Assembly (NCBI GenBank): GCA_030153805.1
Contig: JASKLG010000006.1
Coordinates: 1 to 42,082 of the forward strand
DNA: 42,082 bases
From: Bacillota bacterium
GTDB taxonomy: Bacteria > Bacillota > DTU030 > DUMP01
Direction of reading: 5' to 3'
Position numbers and translations under genes: made by a program. Under the pieces are notes generated by a model, which ran no database searches, had not been told where the DNA came from, and saw only the letters and a program-made list of their open reading frames with translations. Position 1 is the first letter of the stretch. The number at the start of each line of letters is the position of its first letter. Shown one piece after another: positions 8,237-21,204 of the stretch.

Positions 8237-8752
8237 TTATTCCTTTCTTCCTTGGGGATTGTAATTCGGCGGCTCGGTCGAGCGGTAACGCGCCCGAGGC
8301 GGCTCCTCGGCTTCTCTCATTTCATCTGGCTGACCGCTTCTGCTCCGTCCGCCTCTTTTCAGGCACCAGAGGAGCGAGTCCAAATGCTCCAAGATCTGCG
8401 GGGCCAAGTCAAACAGCCGATCATACAAGGCCCGGCTGTCAACGGGAAGCAGGCGCACTTGACCGCCGCCCACTACAACGAAGGCCACGGGTTGCACACT
8501 AACACCGGCGCCGCTTCCCCCACCAAAAGGGAGTGCCGTTCCCGTCTCAGAGCTCTGGCCGCCGCCAGTTCCACCCCGCGGTTCATACTCACCGCCGCCC
8601 GCCGCAAAACCCAGTGAAACACGTGACACAGGGATGATCACACTGCCGTCAGGGGTTTCAACCGGGTCGCCTACTACGGTATTCACATCTACCATGTCTT
8701 TAATACTTTCCATAGCCGTCTTCATGAGGCCTTGAATGGGATGCTCGGCCAT
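8237..8752 (-). CDS. gerW: GerW family sporulation protein (YtfJ)
   Basis: 171 residues. The conserved N-terminus MAEHPIQGLMKTAMESIKDM is followed by VGDPVETPDGSVIIPVSRVS, a Gly-rich segment (GFAAGGGEY) and QPVAFVVVGG, the hallmarks of YtfJ/GerW. In Bacillus it is made in the forespore and is needed for efficient germination through certain receptors. It lies 18 bp after the DUF2953 gene, the same pair as B. subtilis ytfI-ytfJ, and is followed by a terminator. The C-terminus is extended by a charged Arg/Glu-rich tail. Confidence 0.93.
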   Translation of the reverse strand: MAEHPIQGLMKTAMESIKDMVDVNTVVGDPVETPDGSVIIPVSRVSLGFAAGGGEYEPRGGTGGGQSSETGTALPFGGGSGAGVSVQPVAFVVVGGGQVRLLPVDSRALYDRLFDLAPQILEHLDSLLWCLKRGGRSRSGQPDEMREAEEPPRARYRSTEPPNYNPQGRKE

Positions 8753-8770: not shown

Positions 8771-9343
8771 TCACTTAGATTCTAAATGCCGTGCCTTATT
8801 GAAGTATGTAAGTCCCCTGGCGGCAACACTAATAATATGAATCACGGGCACGGACAGTATACACCTCGCGTCAATTTCAAGCCCGGCCCGCGTAAACTCC
8901 GGCTCAATCTTAAAGCGTATCTCCGCCTCTCGGCAGACGGTTTTAGCTAGAGTCTGCACGATGCCGAGACTGCTCCAGAAAAGCCCAACTGTAAAACCCG
9001 TGCAGCTGGCGTCTCCAGTACCAACCTTAAGTCGGCCGCTGGCTCGAAAAGTAGCCGACTTTAAAAGCCTACTCCCCTGGCGTAACAATAACGGCCAATC
9101 ATTCGCCGACAGGGCAGGAATTTTGTCTTTATCCCGTGCCGGTTCCCGTCGCTTAATGAGCTTCCCAACCGGCCGCCAGCAGTATAAAGGTACCCGAAGC
9201 TCCCTTTCGCCCAAGCGCCAGCTGAGGCCAAAGCGTAGATCTAACACTTCCTCAGGCAGGGTACGGCAAACAATTTCCGCCCAGAGTTGGGACAAGAAAA
9301 AGAAAAAAAGGAGGGGGGCAAGAAGAAGAAGATATCCGTACAT
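8771..9343 (-). CDS. ytfI: DUF2953 domain protein (YtfI-like)
   Basis: About 190 residues with one N-terminal transmembrane helix (YGYLLLLAPLLFFFFLSQLW) and a soluble domain with the sequence FRASGRLKVGTGDASCTGFTVG, typical of DUF2953. Molecular role is unknown. Its constant neighbour is gerW, which supports a sporulation role. Several starts are possible (GTG 9352, GTG 9346, ATG 9343); the ATG is best placed behind GGGTGGGGGTGAG. A sigma-F-like promoter lies 31 bp upstream of the ATG. Confidence 0.85.
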   Translation of the reverse strand: MYGYLLLLAPLLFFFFLSQLWAEIVCRTLPEEVLDLRFGLSWRLGERELRVPLYCWRPVGKLIKRREPARDKDKIPALSANDWPLLLRQGSRLLKSATFRASGRLKVGTGDASCTGFTVGLFWSSLGIVQTLAKTVCREAEIRFKIEPEFTRAGLEIDARCILSVPVIHIISVAARGLTYFNKARHLESK

Positions 9344-9373
9344 CACCGCCACTCACCCCCACCCTTTTCCAAC

Positions 9374-9403
9374 TATTTTTCTCCTGTTACCCGCTAATCA
9401 TAC
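9374..9403 (-). promoter_or_regulatory. Candidate sigma-F promoter for DUF2953-gerW
   Basis: On the minus strand GTATG (-35) is followed by 15 nt and GAGAAAAATA (-10). This matches 4 of 5 and 6 of 7 informative positions of the B. subtilis sigma-F consensus (GYWTA, GGNRANANTR). B. subtilis ytfJ is known to be sigma-F dependent. Confidence 0.5.
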
Positions 9404-14239: not shown

Positions 14240-15214
14240 TTATTTTCCCGCTGCTTCGAGAACGAAACTGCTCCAGCGCCCGCAACGGTCCCCCCAGCGT
14301 GCCAGCAACTTCCCCTCACCCAATATCTCGACCACTTCACATTGGTTGCCGCACCCTCCGCATGATCGGCTGGAGACGTCGAAGCGCCATCGGCTTACAT
14401 CGAATCCCCGGAAACGGGTTGAATGCCTTCCGGCCACGGCCCGTTTGGCCAAAAGAGCTGCACCCAGTGCACCCATCACCGCGTGATATCGGGGAACGAT
14501 CACGGGGAATCCCAGGGCCTTTTCGAAAGCCCGGCGCATTCCTACGTTGGCTGCGACACCTCCCTGAAAAAGAATAGGCGCTTGAATATCCTTACCTTTG
14601 GCCACATTATTCAGGTAGTTGCGTACCAGGGCCTCGCAAAGACCGGCAACAATATCCTCCACCGGATAACCAAGTTGCTGTTTGTGAATCATATCCGATT
14701 CGGCAAAGACGGCACACCGTCCGGCAATGCGGACCGGATTCTGAGCCCTTTCGGCCAGGCTACCGAACTCTTCAATGGGGACGCCGAGTCGCGCTGCCTG
14801 CCGGTCTAAGAAAGAGCCCGTCCCGGCGGCGCACACGGTGTTCATGGCAAAGTCTACTACTACTCCCTGGCGGAGAATGATGATTTTTGAATCCTGTCCT
14901 CCAATCTCCAGCACGGTTTGAACCTTTGGAAGCTCGTTCAGGGCAGCCACAGCGTGGGCGGTGATCTCGTTTTTCACCGCATCTGCTCCTACCATAGTAG
15001 CTGCAAGCTGGCGGCCACTCCCCGTAGTGCCGGCACCCGCAATACTCATCCCGGCTGGAATTTGCTTTTCCATCTGGGCCAGGCCCTCCTGCACCGCGCG
15101 GATGGGATTGCCCTGGGTTCTAAGGTAAAGACCGGTAACTACCTCGCCATTTTCATTTAGAAGTACCAAGTTCGTGCTGACAGAACCCACATCGAGGCCA
15201 AGATAAGCCCGCAT
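14240..15214 (-). CDS. Acyl-CoA dehydratase activase (BadF/BcrA/HgdC-type ATPase)
   Basis: About 324 residues from ATG 15214 behind GGAGGAAAGAC; the longer track start has no site. An ASKHA-fold ATPase: phosphate-1 loop LGLDVGSVSTNLVLL, and IGGQDSKI. The two cluster Cys of 2-hydroxyacyl-CoA dehydratase activators are CAAGTGSFLD and GRCAVFAESD, which in the dimer hold one [4Fe-4S]. A C-terminal extension adds CGGCGNQC and GDRCG, as in the DUF2229-associated activases. It follows the two DUF2229 genes and probably injects electrons into them with ATP hydrolysis. Substrate unknown; no CoA-transferase or dehydratase subunit is adjacent. Confidence 0.85.
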   Translation of the reverse strand: MRAYLGLDVGSVSTNLVLLNENGEVVTGLYLRTQGNPIRAVQEGLAQMEKQIPAGMSIAGAGTTGSGRQLAATMVGADAVKNEITAHAVAALNELPKVQTVLEIGGQDSKIIILRQGVVVDFAMNTVCAAGTGSFLDRQAARLGVPIEEFGSLAERAQNPVRIAGRCAVFAESDMIHKQQLGYPVEDIVAGLCEALVRNYLNNVAKGKDIQAPILFQGGVAANVGMRRAFEKALGFPVIVPRYHAVMGALGAALLAKRAVAGRHSTRFRGFDVSRWRFDVSSRSCGGCGNQCEVVEILGEGKLLARWGDRCGRWSSFVLEAAGK

Positions 15215-15281
15215 CTGTCTTTCCTCCATAAGATCAAATTTGCTTCGGTCTCTTTCGCCGCTACGCTCCGGCGACGACGCC

Positions 15282-16397
15282 CTACGGCAGCAGTTCTTTT
15301 GCCCTCTGGGAACGTTTTTTTTGCCTGCGCCTCTCGCGCAGGAGATCGCAAAAGGCTTCGAGCCGGGTGCGCATTCCGACCTCGCTTGCATGCTCATCTA
15401 GCATGAAGGTGATTACGGGAATACCCATATCTCGGCTTACCTTGGGTAGGATACTTTCAGCCACAATCTCCGGCATGCAAGTTAGTGGTGCCAGCTGAAT
15501 TACGCCGTCAAACCCAGACCGTGCGTAGCGGATAGTAAAGCTAATACTCTCAAGACCGTGACCGCCTACGAAATGCCCGAGGTAAGGCGCCGCAAGACGA
15601 TATTCTTCGCGGTCGTTTCTAAGATGCAGGGAATGCAAGACCAGGTTGGTCTTCACCCAATCGCTCAGGTAAATGGAACGCTCCACCTCTACACCCATTT
15701 CCCCCAGCACCCGTTCAACCTCCAGGTTTACCGCCGGCTCCAGCAGGGTATATATCTCACCTACTATCCCAACCCGGAGCACGTCGTCGTCCTCTCTTAG
15801 GGGAATGGCCGCAAGATGCGCCCTCCCAAGGTGCGCTGCCTCTTCAGTCTCCGAGAGGGTCTCTGCCTGATCTAACCAGTCAACAATCTGGCGCCAAGCG
15901 CGGCTGGCGTCCCCCGGAGTAACCTCCCTCGCCCGCACCCGGTGAAGTTCTCGCTCCAGTTCATCAAGGGCGGTGAGCTTGCGCCAGGCAAGTCTCCCGG
16001 CCCGCCAGATTTCCTTAAGACTTGCCCTGCCGGTAATCGCCCGAAGATTATGCCAAAGTTCGCGCCAGTGGCCTTGCGGCGGTTCCAGCACCACCATTTT
16101 GAGGTCAACACCCAAATCCCGTAGGATCTCTTGCTCTACCTGGGCGTAATAGCCAAAGCGGCATGGACCTATCCCGCCGGCCATTATTACTGTGTCGGCC
16201 CCCAACCGGGCGGCCTGAAGAAAATTGCCGACATTCACCTTAAGGGGCAGACAGGCGAATTCCGGAGCGTATCGGGTACCAAAAGCCATGGTTTCCTGGC
16301 TGATGGGTGGAGGAACGACAGTCTCCACCCCCAACCTCGAAAAAAAAGAGCGCAGGGGCACGTGAAGGTGTCCCATATGAGGAAAGGTGATCTTCAC
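15282..16397 (-). CDS. DUF2229 / HgdB-like acyl-CoA dehydratase-type protein (second copy)
   Basis: About 371 residues. The start is GTG 16397, with GGAGGA 7 nt upstream and a 4-bp GTGA overlap with the preceding gene. The N-terminus KITFPHMGHLHVPLRSFF is followed by FACLPLKVNVGNF and MAGGIGPCRFGYY; the C-terminus carries LTCMPEIVAES and the motif DEHASEVGMRTRLEAF. Conserved Cys could hold an iron-sulfur cluster, as in 2-hydroxyglutaryl-CoA dehydratase relatives. It shares the N- and C-terminal motifs with the upstream gene, so the two look like paralogues that may form a heterodimer. Function unknown. Confidence 0.8.
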   Translation of the reverse strand: MKITFPHMGHLHVPLRSFFSRLGVETVVPPPISQETMAFGTRYAPEFACLPLKVNVGNFLQAARLGADTVIMAGGIGPCRFGYYAQVEQEILRDLGVDLKMVVLEPPQGHWRELWHNLRAITGRASLKEIWRAGRLAWRKLTALDELERELHRVRAREVTPGDASRAWRQIVDWLDQAETLSETEEAAHLGRAHLAAIPLREDDDVLRVGIVGEIYTLLEPAVNLEVERVLGEMGVEVERSIYLSDWVKTNLVLHSLHLRNDREEYRLAAPYLGHFVGGHGLESISFTIRYARSGFDGVIQLAPLTCMPEIVAESILPKVSRDMGIPVITFMLDEHASEVGMRTRLEAFCDLLRERRRQKKRSQRAKELLP

Positions 16398-17371
16398 GAA
16401 GCATTCCTCCACTCGACCATGTCCAGGAAAGCCTCCAGTCGCGTCACCATTCCGCCTTCTCCGGTATGCTCATCTAAAGTGAGGAGAAGAAAAGGCAGTT
16501 GCCCCGCCCGACGGGCCTTCCGTTCCAAAAGTTCGCCTACTAAGGAGTCCGGGCCGCAACCGAAGGACACTACGTGAATAATCCCGGCCACTCCCCCGCT
16601 CCGCAAGTAATAACTCCCGGCTCCCAAAACAAGCCGGCCCAGGCTCCAGAAAAGCGCCTTGGGAAGCCGAGCAGCTTCCTCGGCGATAAGCCGGCTAGAG
16701 AGCATTTCCGCCGTAGTTACCCTATAACCTCTGGCACGCAGGCGCCTCAGGAGGCCCAGGCTGATAAAATCATCAAATAGGTTGTAGGGGTGGCCCAGCA
16801 GCAGAAGGGCCTTTTGGGTGCCGAGGTTTTGATCTTGCCCACCTTCTTTGTCTTCTTTTCCTTCTGATAATATGTCAAGGGGTGTCTTCCCTTCGCCGAG
16901 TTTTGCCGTGTAGCGTGCCTGTTCGGCAGCAGCAGCGTTGCAAGCTCGTTTCGCTTGACCGGCGCTGAAGCCGAGCACCCTGGCCGTACGGGTAAGGGCC
17001 TCTTCCCACGCTCGCGGACCACAACGCGCGTTTAGCGTGGGACTTAGAAGTGGCGGCAGTTTTCTCCCAGCATGGCGCAGCATGTCCGGCAAACCCATAA
17101 GCTTAGGGCAAATGTACGTGCCCGTTTCGGCGCTCACCAGGCGGGGTACGAAAAGAAACTCCACCTGCGGGGCCAAGTAGAAGGCGTGCCCGTAGAAGAC
17201 TTTCACCGGCAGGCAGGCTTCAGCTACCGCCGCGGAAACCCCTTGGTCGAGTATTTCTTTGCTTGTCGGCGGAGACGACACAACCTCCAGCCCCAAGTAC
17301 CGCCAAAAGGTCGACCACAAAGGATGGTAGTGATAGTAAAGCAGAGCGCGTGGGATACCAATTCGCACCAA
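16394..17371 (-). CDS. DUF2229 acyl-CoA dehydratase-type protein (first copy)
   Basis: 325 residues with DUF2229 features: VRIGIPRALLYYHYHPLWSTF, EACLPVKVFYGHAF, YICPKLMGLPDML, SFGCGPDSLVGELL and the C-terminal DEHTGEGGMVTRLEAF. In many anaerobes equivalent domains are fused to activase domains in one very long protein; here they are separate genes. Start is TTG 17371 or the adjacent GTG 17368 behind GAGAGGGTGAAGG. It begins 48 bp after spoVAE with no terminator between, so it may be read from the forespore spoVA promoter. Confidence 0.8.
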   Translation of the reverse strand: MVRIGIPRALLYYHYHPLWSTFWRYLGLEVVSSPPTSKEILDQGVSAAVAEACLPVKVFYGHAFYLAPQVEFLFVPRLVSAETGTYICPKLMGLPDMLRHAGRKLPPLLSPTLNARCGPRAWEEALTRTARVLGFSAGQAKRACNAAAAEQARYTAKLGEGKTPLDILSEGKEDKEGGQDQNLGTQKALLLLGHPYNLFDDFISLGLLRRLRARGYRVTTAEMLSSRLIAEEAARLPKALFWSLGRLVLGAGSYYLRSGGVAGIIHVVSFGCGPDSLVGELLERKARRAGQLPFLLLTLDEHTGEGGMVTRLEAFLDMVEWRNAS

Positions 17372-17419: not shown

Positions 17420-17770
17420 CTACTCCTTGGGGTTAAAAAGAAGCGCCATAACGAAGCCGAAAAAAACTGCCGCCGCTATCCCCATACTGGTGTTCTTGAA
17501 CACCCCGCTTAAGATACCAACTGCACCTTTAGCATCGATTTCTTCAAAGATGCCGCTGACGATGGAGTGGCCGAATCCGGTGAGCGGGATGGTAGCTCCG
17601 GCACCGCCGATTTGTACCAGCTTTTCGTAAATACCCAAACCACTGAGGACGGCCCCCAAGGAAACAAAAAGTACCAGCACATGGGCCGGCGTGAGAGGAG
17701 TGAGGTCCATCAACAGTTGGCCCACGGCGCAGATAGACCCGCCAACTAAGAACGCCAGTAAATATTCCAC
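17420..17770 (-). CDS. spoVAE: Stage V sporulation protein AE
   Basis: 116 residues with several hydrophobic helices; it begins MEYLLAFLVGGSICAVGQLL and contains GAGATIPLTGFGHSIVSG, typical of SpoVAE (AEb type). Part of the inner-membrane channel that takes up dipicolinate during sporulation and releases it on germination. Last of spoVAC-AD-AE, 17 bp after spoVAD. SpoVAA, AB and AF are not in this window, the minimal arrangement common in Clostridia. Confidence 0.93.
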   Translation of the reverse strand: MEYLLAFLVGGSICAVGQLLMDLTPLTPAHVLVLFVSLGAVLSGLGIYEKLVQIGGAGATIPLTGFGHSIVSGIFEEIDAKGAVGILSGVFKNTSMGIAAAVFFGFVMALLFNPKE

Positions 17771-17787: not shown

Positions 17788-18801
17788 TCAGACCCTTTCC
17801 ACCGCAACCGCGTGGGCAATACAGGGTATGGACTCACCTTGTTGGTAAGAAGTAGGGCTGAGCAAGGCCCCGGTACTGACCAAAAGGACCTTGCCATATT
17901 GGCCGCTCAAAAGGCCGCGGTAAAAGTACCCGGCGAAGACCGTAGCCGAGCAGCCACATCCGCTCCCGCCGGAGTGTACATCCTGATCCGGCCGGAAGAT
18001 GAGGACACCGCAATCGGTAAAGTTTTTGCTTAGATCATAACCCGCTTCCGCCAACATTTCTTGGGCCAAGACTTTGCCCAGACTTCCTAAGTCGCCGGTG
18101 GCTATCACGTCGTAATAGTCGGGGCCACGGCCGGTGTCTTCGAAATGCTGTTTGATCGTCGCCACGGCTGCAGGCGCCATAGCCGATCCCATGTCGTTTA
18201 TGTCTTTAATGCCCATGTCCACCACCTTACCCACGGTCGTGCAGGTGAGGGCTGGCCCGGAACCGCCCTCTCCTACAATAGTTGCTGCCGCTCCCGTTAC
18301 CGTCCATTGCGCGGTCGGTTTACGCTGAACACCGAGTTCGGCGGGAAAACGGTACTGCCGTTCAGCTGTTTGGTAGTGAGAAGATGCAGTAACCAGTACC
18401 CGCGCGGCAAAACCCCCGTCCAGGGTAATACCGGCCAGTGAAAGGGCTTCAGTATACGTGGAACAGGCCCCAAAGAGGCCGTAAAAGGGAACGGGTACAT
18501 CGCGGGCGGCAAAGTTCGAAGCAATGATTTGGTTCAGGAGATCCCCGCCGAACATAAAATCCAAATCCCCGTAAGCTAAGTTGCTTTTTTGCATGGCCAG
18601 CTGAATGGCCGTACGCACCATTTTGGATTCGGCTTTTTCCCAGCTCTTCTCGCCAAAGAGAGGGTCGGTCACCACCTGGTCGAAGTACTCGCCTAGGGGC
18701 CCCTCCCCTTCCTTTTTTCCCACTACAGTGCCCGTACTTATAATGGGGAGCGGCCGACTGAACATAAAGGTCTGCCGGCCCACCTTTTTGCTTCGTGTCA
18801 C
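17788..18801 (-). CDS. spoVAD: Stage V sporulation protein AD
   Basis: 337 residues with the thiolase-like fold of SpoVAD. Seen: FMFGGDLLNQIIASNF, YGLFGACSTYTEALSLA, VTGAAATIVGEGG, GVLIFRPDQDVHSGGSGCGCSA and LLVSTGALLSPTSYQQGESIP. This soluble protein sits on the inner spore membrane and binds dipicolinate directly. It lies 11 bp after spoVAC. Confidence 0.95.
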   Translation of the reverse strand: MTRSKKVGRQTFMFSRPLPIISTGTVVGKKEGEGPLGEYFDQVVTDPLFGEKSWEKAESKMVRTAIQLAMQKSNLAYGDLDFMFGGDLLNQIIASNFAARDVPVPFYGLFGACSTYTEALSLAGITLDGGFAARVLVTASSHYQTAERQYRFPAELGVQRKPTAQWTVTGAAATIVGEGGSGPALTCTTVGKVVDMGIKDINDMGSAMAPAAVATIKQHFEDTGRGPDYYDVIATGDLGSLGKVLAQEMLAEAGYDLSKNFTDCGVLIFRPDQDVHSGGSGCGCSATVFAGYFYRGLLSGQYGKVLLVSTGALLSPTSYQQGESIPCIAHAVAVERV

Positions 18802-18812
18802 AAATGAGCCTC

Positions 18813-19268
18813 CTAAAGTTTAGTGATCCAGTAAACAATTCCCACCACTACTGCCGTTACAGTGCCGTAAACGAGAACTGGTCCGGCTACGCTGAACATC
18901 CGGGCACCCAATCCAAGGACAAACCCCTCCCGCTTGAAGTCTATAGCCGGTGAAACGATGGAATTGGCAAAGCCGGTGATGGGTATCACCGAACCGGCAC
19001 CGGCAAACTTCCCGAGTTCGTCATACCAGCCGAGGCCGGTGAAGAAAGCCCCTAGAAAAACCATAACGCTGGCCGTCGGGCCAGCAGCTTCTTTGGCCGT
19101 CATACCTAGCGATTGAAAGAAGGCCATAACTGCCTGGCCAAGAACGCAAATGAGACCGCCTACGATAAAAGCCAGTAAGGTGTTTCTGAGTACCGGCGGC
19201 TTAGGTTTTTTCTGCTGTACCCGCCAATAATATAGTTTTTTGTCTAGATTAGGATCCTGCGCGCTCAC
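18813..19268 (-). CDS. spoVAC: Stage V sporulation protein AC
   Basis: 151 residues; a charged N-terminus is followed by about four membrane helices (RNTLLAFIVGGLICVLGQAV and others). GAGSVIPITGFANSIVSPAIDFKREGF is the SpoVAC signature. In B. subtilis SpoVAC is a mechanosensitive channel for dipicolinate. Start GTG. A sigma-G-like promoter lies just upstream, so spoVAC-AD-AE should be a forespore operon. Confidence 0.95.
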   Translation of the reverse strand: MSAQDPNLDKKLYYWRVQQKKPKPPVLRNTLLAFIVGGLICVLGQAVMAFFQSLGMTAKEAAGPTASVMVFLGAFFTGLGWYDELGKFAGAGSVIPITGFANSIVSPAIDFKREGFVLGLGARMFSVAGPVLVYGTVTAVVVGIVYWITKL

Positions 19269-19284
19269 CGTACCACCCTCTTTT

Positions 19285-19314
19285 TAGTTTGACTTGGTAA
19301 AGCCTACCTTATAC
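19285..19314 (-). promoter_or_regulatory. Candidate sigma-G promoter of spoVAC-AD-AE
   Basis: GTATA, an 18-nt spacer, then CAAACTA on the minus strand, 17 bp before the spoVAC GTG. The -10 departs from CATNHTA at one position. The spoVA operon is sigma-G dependent in B. subtilis. Confidence 0.5.
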
Positions 19315-19324
19315 GCCGGTCCTT

Positions 19325-19357
19325 TCTAAAAAAGGGAGAGCACCTGAGGTGCCCTCC
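19325..19357 (-). terminator. Terminator after the dodecin gene
   Basis: GGAGGGCACCT-C-AGGTGCTCTCC-type stem (one mismatch) followed by TTTTTT on the minus strand. It separates dodecin from spoVAC. Confidence 0.75.
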
Positions 19358-19360
19358 GTT

Positions 19361-19567
19361 TTACGTTCCATCTACGGGGAAGGCGATCTTGCAATTGGCT
19401 TTGTACTCAACAACCTCTCCATTTTGCACATTGGCAGTCAGGTTGTAAATCTCCACTCCTGAGATGTTACGGACGGTCTTGGAGGCTTGTCTTACGGCAT
19501 CGCGAACCGCCGCATCCCAGCTGTCTTTGGATTCACCTACCACTTCAATAACCTTGACTACGGTCAT
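19361..19567 (-). CDS. Dodecin family flavin-binding protein
   Basis: 68 residues from ATG 19567 (GGGAGGTTTGCCC upstream; the track start is a TTG inside that spacer). The sequence runs VKVIEVVGESKDSWDAAVRDAV, then TVRNISGVEIYNLTANVQNGEVVEYKANCKIAF, the dodecin beta-alpha-beta-beta pattern including the Trp that stacks on the flavin. Dodecins form 12-mers that store or buffer flavin (FMN, riboflavin or lumichrome). It is a single-gene unit with its own terminator between sigF and spoVAC. Its upstream region has a near-perfect sigma-G promoter, which suggests forespore expression. Confidence 0.93.
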   Translation of the reverse strand: MTVVKVIEVVGESKDSWDAAVRDAVRQASKTVRNISGVEIYNLTANVQNGEVVEYKANCKIAFPVDGT

Positions 19568-19619
19568 GGGCAAACCTCCCTTCGGCTGTTTCTTTGGGCT
19601 TCCGCCCGCCGGCCAAGTT

Positions 19620-19649
19620 TAGTATGGCTCCCCGGCAAAAAAAGCATAC
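19620..19649 (-). promoter_or_regulatory. Sigma-G-type promoter of the dodecin gene
   Basis: GTATG, an 18-nt spacer, then CATACTA on the minus strand, a full match to the B. subtilis sigma-G pattern GHATR-(17-18)-CATNHTA. It lies 53 bp before the dodecin ATG and immediately behind the sigF terminator. Confidence 0.65.
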
Positions 19650-19674
19650 AAAAAAGCGGGCCTTACCCGCTTTC
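19650..19674 (-). terminator. Terminator of the spoIIA-sigF operon
   Basis: AAAGCGGG-TAAGG-CCCGCTTTTTT on the minus strand, overlapping the last sigF codons. Confidence 0.8.
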
Positions 19675-20451
19675 CATCAAGCGTTTTATTTTTAAGAGAA
19701 TTTGCTTTTCTAGGCGCGAAACCTGCACTTGAGACAGGCCCAGTTGGGCCGCCACTTCTGCTTGAGTCTTATCCCTGAAGAAACGTTCGTAAATTATGTA
19801 CCGTTCGCGCGGTGCCAGTTTTTCCAGAACCTGATTCAAAAGTACATGCTCCAGCCATTCTTCACCTTTTTCTTCGCCCAGTTGGGCTTCAAGGTTAATG
19901 GCCGTGCCTTCATCTTGATAAATGGGATCAGATAGGGAAGTGGGCGATTCGGTAGCCTCCAAGGCGGCTACCAACTCTTCAGGCGCCACCCCTAATTCTC
20001 GGGCAAGCTCGTTCAGCGACGGTTCTCGTCCCAGGCGCTGTCCCAAGGCCGTGCTGGCCCGCCGGGCCTTAAGCGCCGTCTCCTTAAGCGAACGGCTTAC
20101 ACGGATGGGGTTATCGTCACGGAGAAAACGGCGGATTTCCCCGACGATCATGGGCACGGCGTAGGTAGAAAACTGCACCCCGTAATCAAGGCTAAACTTG
20201 TCCACTGCCTTCATAAGGCCGATAGTACCGATTTGAAAAAGGTCCTCAAACTCGTAACCTCGACCGCAAAAGCGGCGTGCTATACCCACTACCAGACGCA
20301 GGTTATTCTTAATCAACTCATCACGAGCCTCGCGGTCACCGGCCTGTGTTCGCCGTACTAATTCGGCTACCGCTTCAGGTTGCAAAGCAATGCGAGCAGG
20401 AAGGTCCAAACTAATAAAGCGTTCATTCATCTGCCACGCCCCGCTGTTCAT
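19663..20451 (-). CDS. sigF: RNA polymerase sigma factor SigF (forespore)
   Basis: 262 residues of the sigma-70 sporulation group. Region 2 shows LIKNNLRLVVGIARRFCGRGYEFEDLFQIGTIGLMKAVDKF followed by FSTYAVPMIVGEIRRFLRDD; region 3 follows; region 4 has the helix-turn-helix KTQAEVAAQLGLSQVQVSRLEK. Sequence alone could also fit sigma-G, but the position directly after spoIIAA-spoIIAB identifies sigma-F. The ATG used has GGAG 10 nt upstream; a second ATG (20430) overlaps the spoIIAB stop. Confidence 0.95.
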   Translation of the reverse strand: MNSGAWQMNERFISLDLPARIALQPEAVAELVRRTQAGDREARDELIKNNLRLVVGIARRFCGRGYEFEDLFQIGTIGLMKAVDKFSLDYGVQFSTYAVPMIVGEIRRFLRDDNPIRVSRSLKETALKARRASTALGQRLGREPSLNELARELGVAPEELVAALEATESPTSLSDPIYQDEGTAINLEAQLGEEKGEEWLEHVLLNQVLEKLAPRERYIIYERFFRDKTQAEVAAQLGLSQVQVSRLEKQILLKIKRLMESG

Positions 20452-20857
20452 CCAGCGTCTTCTCCATGTAAATCCGTGTACCGTGCTCCGAGCTTATTTC
20501 TACCCTGTCCATGCAGGCCTCAATGAGGGAAAGTCCAATGCCCATTCTCTCGCCGGGCCGAGTACTCGAGCCAAAGCGGCGGGCGGCGGCCAGGTCGGCT
20601 ATTCCCCTCCCTTCGTCGCTCACCTCGATCATAATCCGTCGTCCTGCCAAGCGCACATAAATACGCACCGGTCCCTCTCCTTCGGGGTAGGCATGAACCA
20701 CGGCGTTGGTGACTGCTTCTGATACGGCCGTACTGATGTCCGCCAGTTCGGACAGTGTCGGATCGAGCTGGCTGGCAAAGGCGGCAACGGTCGTACGGGC
20801 GAAAGCCACATTCTCCGGCCGGCTGGGAAACTCTAAGTGCATCTCGTTTTCTTTCAT
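20423..20857 (-). CDS. spoIIAB: Anti-sigma F factor, serine kinase SpoIIAB
   Basis: 144 residues from ATG 20857 (GGGAGAAAGA upstream; 4-bp ATGA overlap with spoIIAA). The GHKL ATPase boxes are present: N-box ISTAVSEAVTNAVVHAYP, G1 box VSDEGRGI and G2 box PGERMGIGLSLI. It binds and inhibits sigma-F, and phosphorylates SpoIIAA. The longer track ORF reads through spoIIAA in another frame. Confidence 0.96.
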   Translation of the reverse strand: MKENEMHLEFPSRPENVAFARTTVAAFASQLDPTLSELADISTAVSEAVTNAVVHAYPEGEGPVRIYVRLAGRRIMIEVSDEGRGIADLAAARRFGSSTRPGERMGIGLSLIEACMDRVEISSEHGTRIYMEKTLDEQRGVADE

Positions 20858-21204
20858 TCTTTCTCCCTCCCCACGCGGGCCAGGGCTTCTTTTACCGTAG
20901 CTGTAACTGGCATAATCTTGGTAAGGCCGGAAAGCTCCAGCACCCGGCGCACCTGGGCGCGGGCACCGGCTACGGCCATTACCCAACCATTCTCCATGCA
21001 CCAGCGGTAACGGCCCAAGAGAAATCCTAACCCGGAGCTATCCATAAAGTTAACTCCGGTTAAATCCAAAATGAGACATCGCATACCCGGCTTGATCAGT
21101 GCTGCTTCGAGCTCAGTCCGGGCGCGAGGTACCGTTGCTACATCGAGCTCGCCATCTAAAACCGCAATTATGCTCGTTCCTTCATATCTAAGTACGACCC
21201 CCAC
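20854..21204 (-). CDS. spoIIAA: Anti-sigma F factor antagonist SpoIIAA
   Basis: 116 residues, a STAS-domain protein. LDGELDVATVPRARTELEAAL leads to ILDLTGVNFMDSSGLGFLLGRY. The second Ser of MDSSG (Ser57) corresponds to the B. subtilis Ser58 phosphorylated by SpoIIAB and dephosphorylated by SpoIIE. Start GTG behind GGAGGAAGAGCA. First gene of spoIIAA-spoIIAB-sigF with overlapping stops and starts. Confidence 0.96.
   Translation of the reverse strand: MGVVLRYEGTSIIAVLDGELDVATVPRARTELEAALIKPGMRCLILDLTGVNFMDSSGLGFLLGRYRWCMENGWVMAVAGARAQVRRVLELSGLTKIMPVTATVKEALARVGREKE

Follow-up and report, generated by a model that had tools for sequence, protein, structure and literature searches.

In the 42,082-nucleotide stretch of Bacillota DNA analyzed here (the window), a dodecin gene lies among genes for sporulation. 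This raises the question of whether the gene belongs to the forespore program, and whether its product handles flavin as other dodecins do. The coding sequence (19361..19567, minus strand) specifies 68 amino acids from an ATG at 19567 and is preceded by the ribosome binding site GGGAGG (19575..19580, minus strand); a TTG at 19573 is an alternative start that gives a slightly longer reading frame. The protein was found to match the Dodecin family PF07311 with 94.3 bits against a gathering cut-off of 22.5. The neighboring genes, all on the minus strand, were identified by profile matches. Upstream are spoIIAA (20854..21204, STAS), the anti-sigma-F gene spoIIAB (20423..20860, HATPase_c_2) and sigF (19663..20451), the latter recognized from sigma-70 regions 2-4 and its position after spoIIAA-spoIIAB. 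Downstream are spoVAC (18813..19268, PF03862 with 140 bits), spoVAD (17788..18801, PF07451 with 504 bits) and spoVAEB (17420..17770, PF03862 with 121 bits). The location between sigF and the spoVA operon, as well as a terminator belonging to the dodecin gene itself, had been claimed in an earlier note on this DNA, and both were found here. The intrinsic terminator after dodecin (19335..19357, minus strand) has a stem of 10 pairs, 7 of them GC, and a T run, while that of sigF (19651..19675, minus strand) ends just before the dodecin -35 element. Since terminators close both sigF and dodecin, the latter appears to be a transcription unit of its own. In B. subtilis the genes spoVAC-spoVAD-spoVAEB are likewise located 3' of the spoIIA-sigF operon and have forespore promoters, but that organism carries spoVAA and was found to lack dodecin in our control searches.

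The dodecin gene is preceded by GTATG-N18-CATACTA (19620..19649, minus strand), 52 bases 5' of the ATG. This fits the sigma-G promoter pattern GHATR-N17/18-CATNNTA and is an exact match to the stricter GHATR-N18-CATHMTA, which occurs once in the window where shuffled sequences predict 0.01, so that the full sigma-G box reported earlier is confirmed. A chance occurrence was ruled out by this ratio together with the presence of a -35 element at the right distance in relatives. The whole genome of 1.7 Mb holds five exact matches, vs. two for a reversed-pattern control. Two matches besides that of dodecin sit approximately 40 bases 5' of an open gene, one of which encodes a ClpP-like protease (PF00574) that may resemble tepA, a gene of the sigma-G regulon in B. 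subtilis. Of the five matches, at least one appears non-genic. A looser forespore pattern gave three matches in the window where 0.12 were expected. These lie 5' of dodecin, 5' of spoVAC and 5' of the gene preceding a ytfJ-like gene. The box before spoVAC, GTATA-N18-CAAACTA (19285..19314, minus strand), is weaker than that of dodecin.

The earlier note had proposed to look for the CATACTA box at the same locus in related genomes. Within the family to which the window belongs, seven of the eight members compared kept the box and seven kept the -35 sequence GTATG, while the spacer and flanks diverged. Across 71 non-redundant linked loci, 34% reached a sigma-G score of at least 16, vs. 1.1% for shuffles, 5.6% for the reverse strand and 2.9% for coding sequence. 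De novo motif discovery on 80 non-redundant regions upstream of dodecin yielded GGG(a/c)A(T/A)A(A/C)TA, which was present in about 85% of them and combines features of the -10 elements recognized by sigma-F and by sigma-G; about 15% of the regions had no clear forespore box. This -10 motif, which was trained on the same upstream sequences that it scores, had a log-likelihood of 110 vs. 39-43 for shuffles and was found on 62 of 80 forward strands vs. 27 of 80 reverse strands. The -35 element was left out of the training, and a GNATR-like -35 was nevertheless present in 28 of the 62 loci at offsets -20 and -19, giving spacers of N18 and N17, vs. about 0.7 occurrences at each other offset. The sigma-A consensus was not enriched in the same regions, which ruled out a sigma-A promoter as the real dodecin promoter. 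Several loci have a box nearer the sigma-F type, GGGGAATAATA, among them loci of family f15 (L138, L141, L142, L149, L150, L152, L158), where dodecin is located away from sigF and spoVA and where most copies carry this sequence, nearer a sigma-F -10, upstream. Taken from sequence, forespore control of these dodecins, by sigma-G alone or with sigma-F, is well supported.

The chromosomal place of the gene was highly conserved. In a sample of 61 genomes, i.e., the window's own and 60 relatives, dodecin was present in 43 genomes from 32 families, and in 41 of these 43 genomes (30 of 32 families) it was flanked, on its own strand, by sigF upstream, by spoVAC/spoVAD downstream, or by both. In one of the two exceptions (L050) dodecin adjoins the sigF operon at its end, the two being oriented toward each other. 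Carriers of the locus include Dethiobacter alkaliphilus and a genome of the Moorellales. Genome searches gave 143 spore-type loci, 94 with both neighbors, 30 with one and 19 with neither, some flanks being cut by contig ends. The spoVAC gene could start no more than 40 bp after the dodecin stop codon in 22 of 53 loci, taking the first possible start codon, which shortens the gaps. In about 40% of the relatives, dodecin therefore appears to open the spoVA operon. Dodecin is strongly, though not invariably, linked to SpoVA, since 15 loci had it with sigF and no spoVA within the flank examined, in addition to the 19 linked to neither.

Dodecin was also distributed with spore formation, here defined by the SpoVAD gene and not by phenotype. 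A survey of 399 genomes from the phylum found dodecin in 213 of 342 genomes with SpoVAD vs. three of 57 without (Fisher p about 4e-17; overlap counted by hand from two tables). In G193 and G351, two of these three, the dodecins are Rv0379-like or of other non-spore types; these genes (L109/L165, L169, and L172) lack the spore-type signature and belong to a different subfamily. The third, G123, is a 78% complete genome in which sigF and spoVA are present at the dodecin locus. The spore-type dodecin is thus nearly restricted to genomes of spore formers. Spore formation in general does not require it, since about 38% of the genomes with SpoVAD lack it, as does B. subtilis. A replacement of spoVAA/spoVAB by dodecin was ruled out: spoVAA is rare in the sample (19 of 399) and is located just upstream of dodecin in five genomes (G054, G067, G105, G240, and G310).

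An AlphaFold2 monomer model of the window protein, built from a 75-sequence alignment, had a pLDDT of 96, and both the model and a Foldseek comparison gave the beta-alpha-beta-beta fold of dodecins. The model superimposed on 2cz8 with a TM of 0.94 and an rmsd of 1.1 A; the monomer scored TM 0.91-0.95 and an rmsd of about 1 A over the solved flavin dodecins, and lower against 3onr. Pfam family, length and predicted fold are accordingly shared with bacterial flavin dodecins such as Rv1498A, T. thermophilus TTHA1431 and those of Streptomyces. Known dodecins hold the isoalloxazine rings between symmetry-related tryptophans (PMC7414021), and the spore-type proteins differ from them at the very residues concerned. 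The stacking tryptophan, located through Thermus W38 from the W38F structure entry, was found to be glycine in 152 of 152 spore-type sequences. The neighboring glutamine position, the next flavin contact in flavin-binding dodecins, was Lys in 97% and Arg in 3% of 71 non-redundant sequences, the window protein having Lys. The window protein also missed both NCBIfam dodecin equivalogs, with 56.4 bits against a cut-off of 75 and 51.8 against 100, and its gene, unlike those of flavin dodecins, is linked to sporulation genes. The residues kept in the subfamily are S13, W17, A20, G37, E39, N42, T44, G50, K56, N/D58, and A62. Of these, E39, N42, T44, K56, and N/D58 are invariant or nearly so, which suggests a remodeled pocket; E39-T44 and K56-N58 would line the former flavin site as judged from strand position only. 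W17 is conserved on the helix, where Rv0379 also has Trp; a flavin site of another build is conceivable in the spore-type dodecins. We conclude from its sequence that the window gene belongs to a separate, spore-type subfamily of dodecins, and we are highly confident of its identity as a dodecin under forespore-type control.

Flavin dodecins are flavin storage proteins (PMC12855090), and the earlier note had suggested that flavin may be packed into or shielded in the forespore. Its forespore half agrees with the synteny, the promoter elements and the co-occurrence with SpoVA, whereas its flavin half was not borne out. A forespore dodecamer that keeps FMN/riboflavin in reserve for outgrowth, or protects it from photo-oxidation, would be in line with the shared family and fold; with Gly for the stacking Trp throughout, Lys or Arg for Gln and scores below both NCBI cut-offs, we regard such a flavin store as unlikely. 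Because the stacking Trp is lost and a polar set is newly invariant, a change of ligand is the simplest reading, and automatic labeling of the protein as "flavin-binding dodecin" is probably an error in these spore formers. It is far less probable still that dodecin is a housekeeping gene hitch-hiking in the cluster with a chance promoter match. Short motifs do arise by chance, as the seemingly non-genic genome match illustrates, but the synteny, the SpoVAD co-occurrence, the footprint of conserved promoter boxes and the independent -35 at the right distance speak against this reading.

The spoVA genes encode transport of dipicolinate (DPA), and a calcium-binding shell of the Rv0379 kind, helping Ca2+ handling during Ca-DPA loading, deserves consideration next to them. 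Rv0379 (SecE2; 3onr, titled calcium dodecin) likewise lacks the flavin Trp and carries a basic residue, Arg, in place of the Gln; in it, as in the spore-type dodecins, a Ser-Trp motif marks the start of the helix. However, it lacks the conserved E39/N42/T44/N58 set and any sporulation context, and the window protein matched 3onr with only 25 bits vs. 38 bits for flavin dodecins. Rv0379 was thus not the closest solved relative, ranking under the flavin dodecins by both sequence and fold, and a shell of its kind seems doubtful to us. Equally tentative is a protein with no small-molecule ligand, a stable one that would fill the spore core or serve as its scaffold, or else pair with a SpoVA protein. 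The fold class is very stable (PMC7414021) and the gene adjoins, and often abuts, spoVAC, but a nearly invariant polar set on the beta strands that bear the flavin pocket of related dodecins exceeds the need of a filler.

We favor, with a probability of roughly 60%, a forespore-transcribed spore-type dodecin that is predicted to form a dodecamer and probably binds a ligand other than flavin. A sigma-G promoter, and perhaps a sigma-F promoter as well, would drive its transcription in the forespore, either jointly with the spoVA operon or immediately ahead of it; we consider such forespore expression beside spoVA likely. By homology to flavin dodecins, which are homododecamers binding flavin dimers, the 68-residue protein would form a hollow dodecamer, stable to heat, inside the forespore core. 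Since the former flavin pocket appears remodeled, with Trp to Gly, Gln to Lys and nearly invariant Glu39, Asn42, Thr44, and Asn/Asp58, a small non-flavin ligand would be most likely, probably anionic or a metal, and the dodecamer might act at the time of SpoVA loading. Any particular ligand can be named only with much reserve. The gene neighborhood makes Ca2+/dipicolinate, the SpoVA cargo, the leading guess, and dodecin, with its conserved position as first of the spoVA genes or directly ahead of them, is a candidate for a role in Ca-DPA loading of the spore core. More speculatively, a forespore-specific dodecamer could be present in many endospore formers other than the Bacillus model; in its repurposed flavin pocket it would bind dipicolinate, Ca2+, or Ca-DPA, buffering or nucleating the cargo that SpoVA delivers.

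A spore dodecin is easily missed because B. subtilis lacks dodecin. A 2012 survey of sporulation genes mentions neither COG3360 nor flavin (PMC3533761), and we found no paper joining dodecin and spores in the open-access literature, a coverage that leaves out most subscription journals and hence does not prove priority. What is new here is a variant of a known fold within a known regulon, with a wide distribution. For much of the phylum, the sporulation genes thereby gain a small, widespread and apparently unremarked member, in which the dodecin fold has apparently been re-used without flavin.

Some further genes were noted. The other gene with an exact sigma-G box in the genome, 39 bases 5' of its start, encodes 75 residues that match no Pfam or NCBIfam family (L160:1500-1800) and is possibly a new forespore gene. 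In the window, a forespore-type box, GTATG-N18-AAAAATA (9374-9403, minus strand), is located 22 bases 5' of a DUF2953-like gene (8771-9352, minus strand), which is followed by a ytfJ-like sporulation gene (8237-8752, minus strand); both names are tentative, neither coming from a profile match. On the 3' side of spoVAEB lies a DUF2229 gene of the CoA-enzyme-activase type (PF09989, 16394-17371, minus strand). Two of its neighbors resemble related activase parts, and the whole stretch (14240-17371, minus strand) is set against the sporulation cluster.
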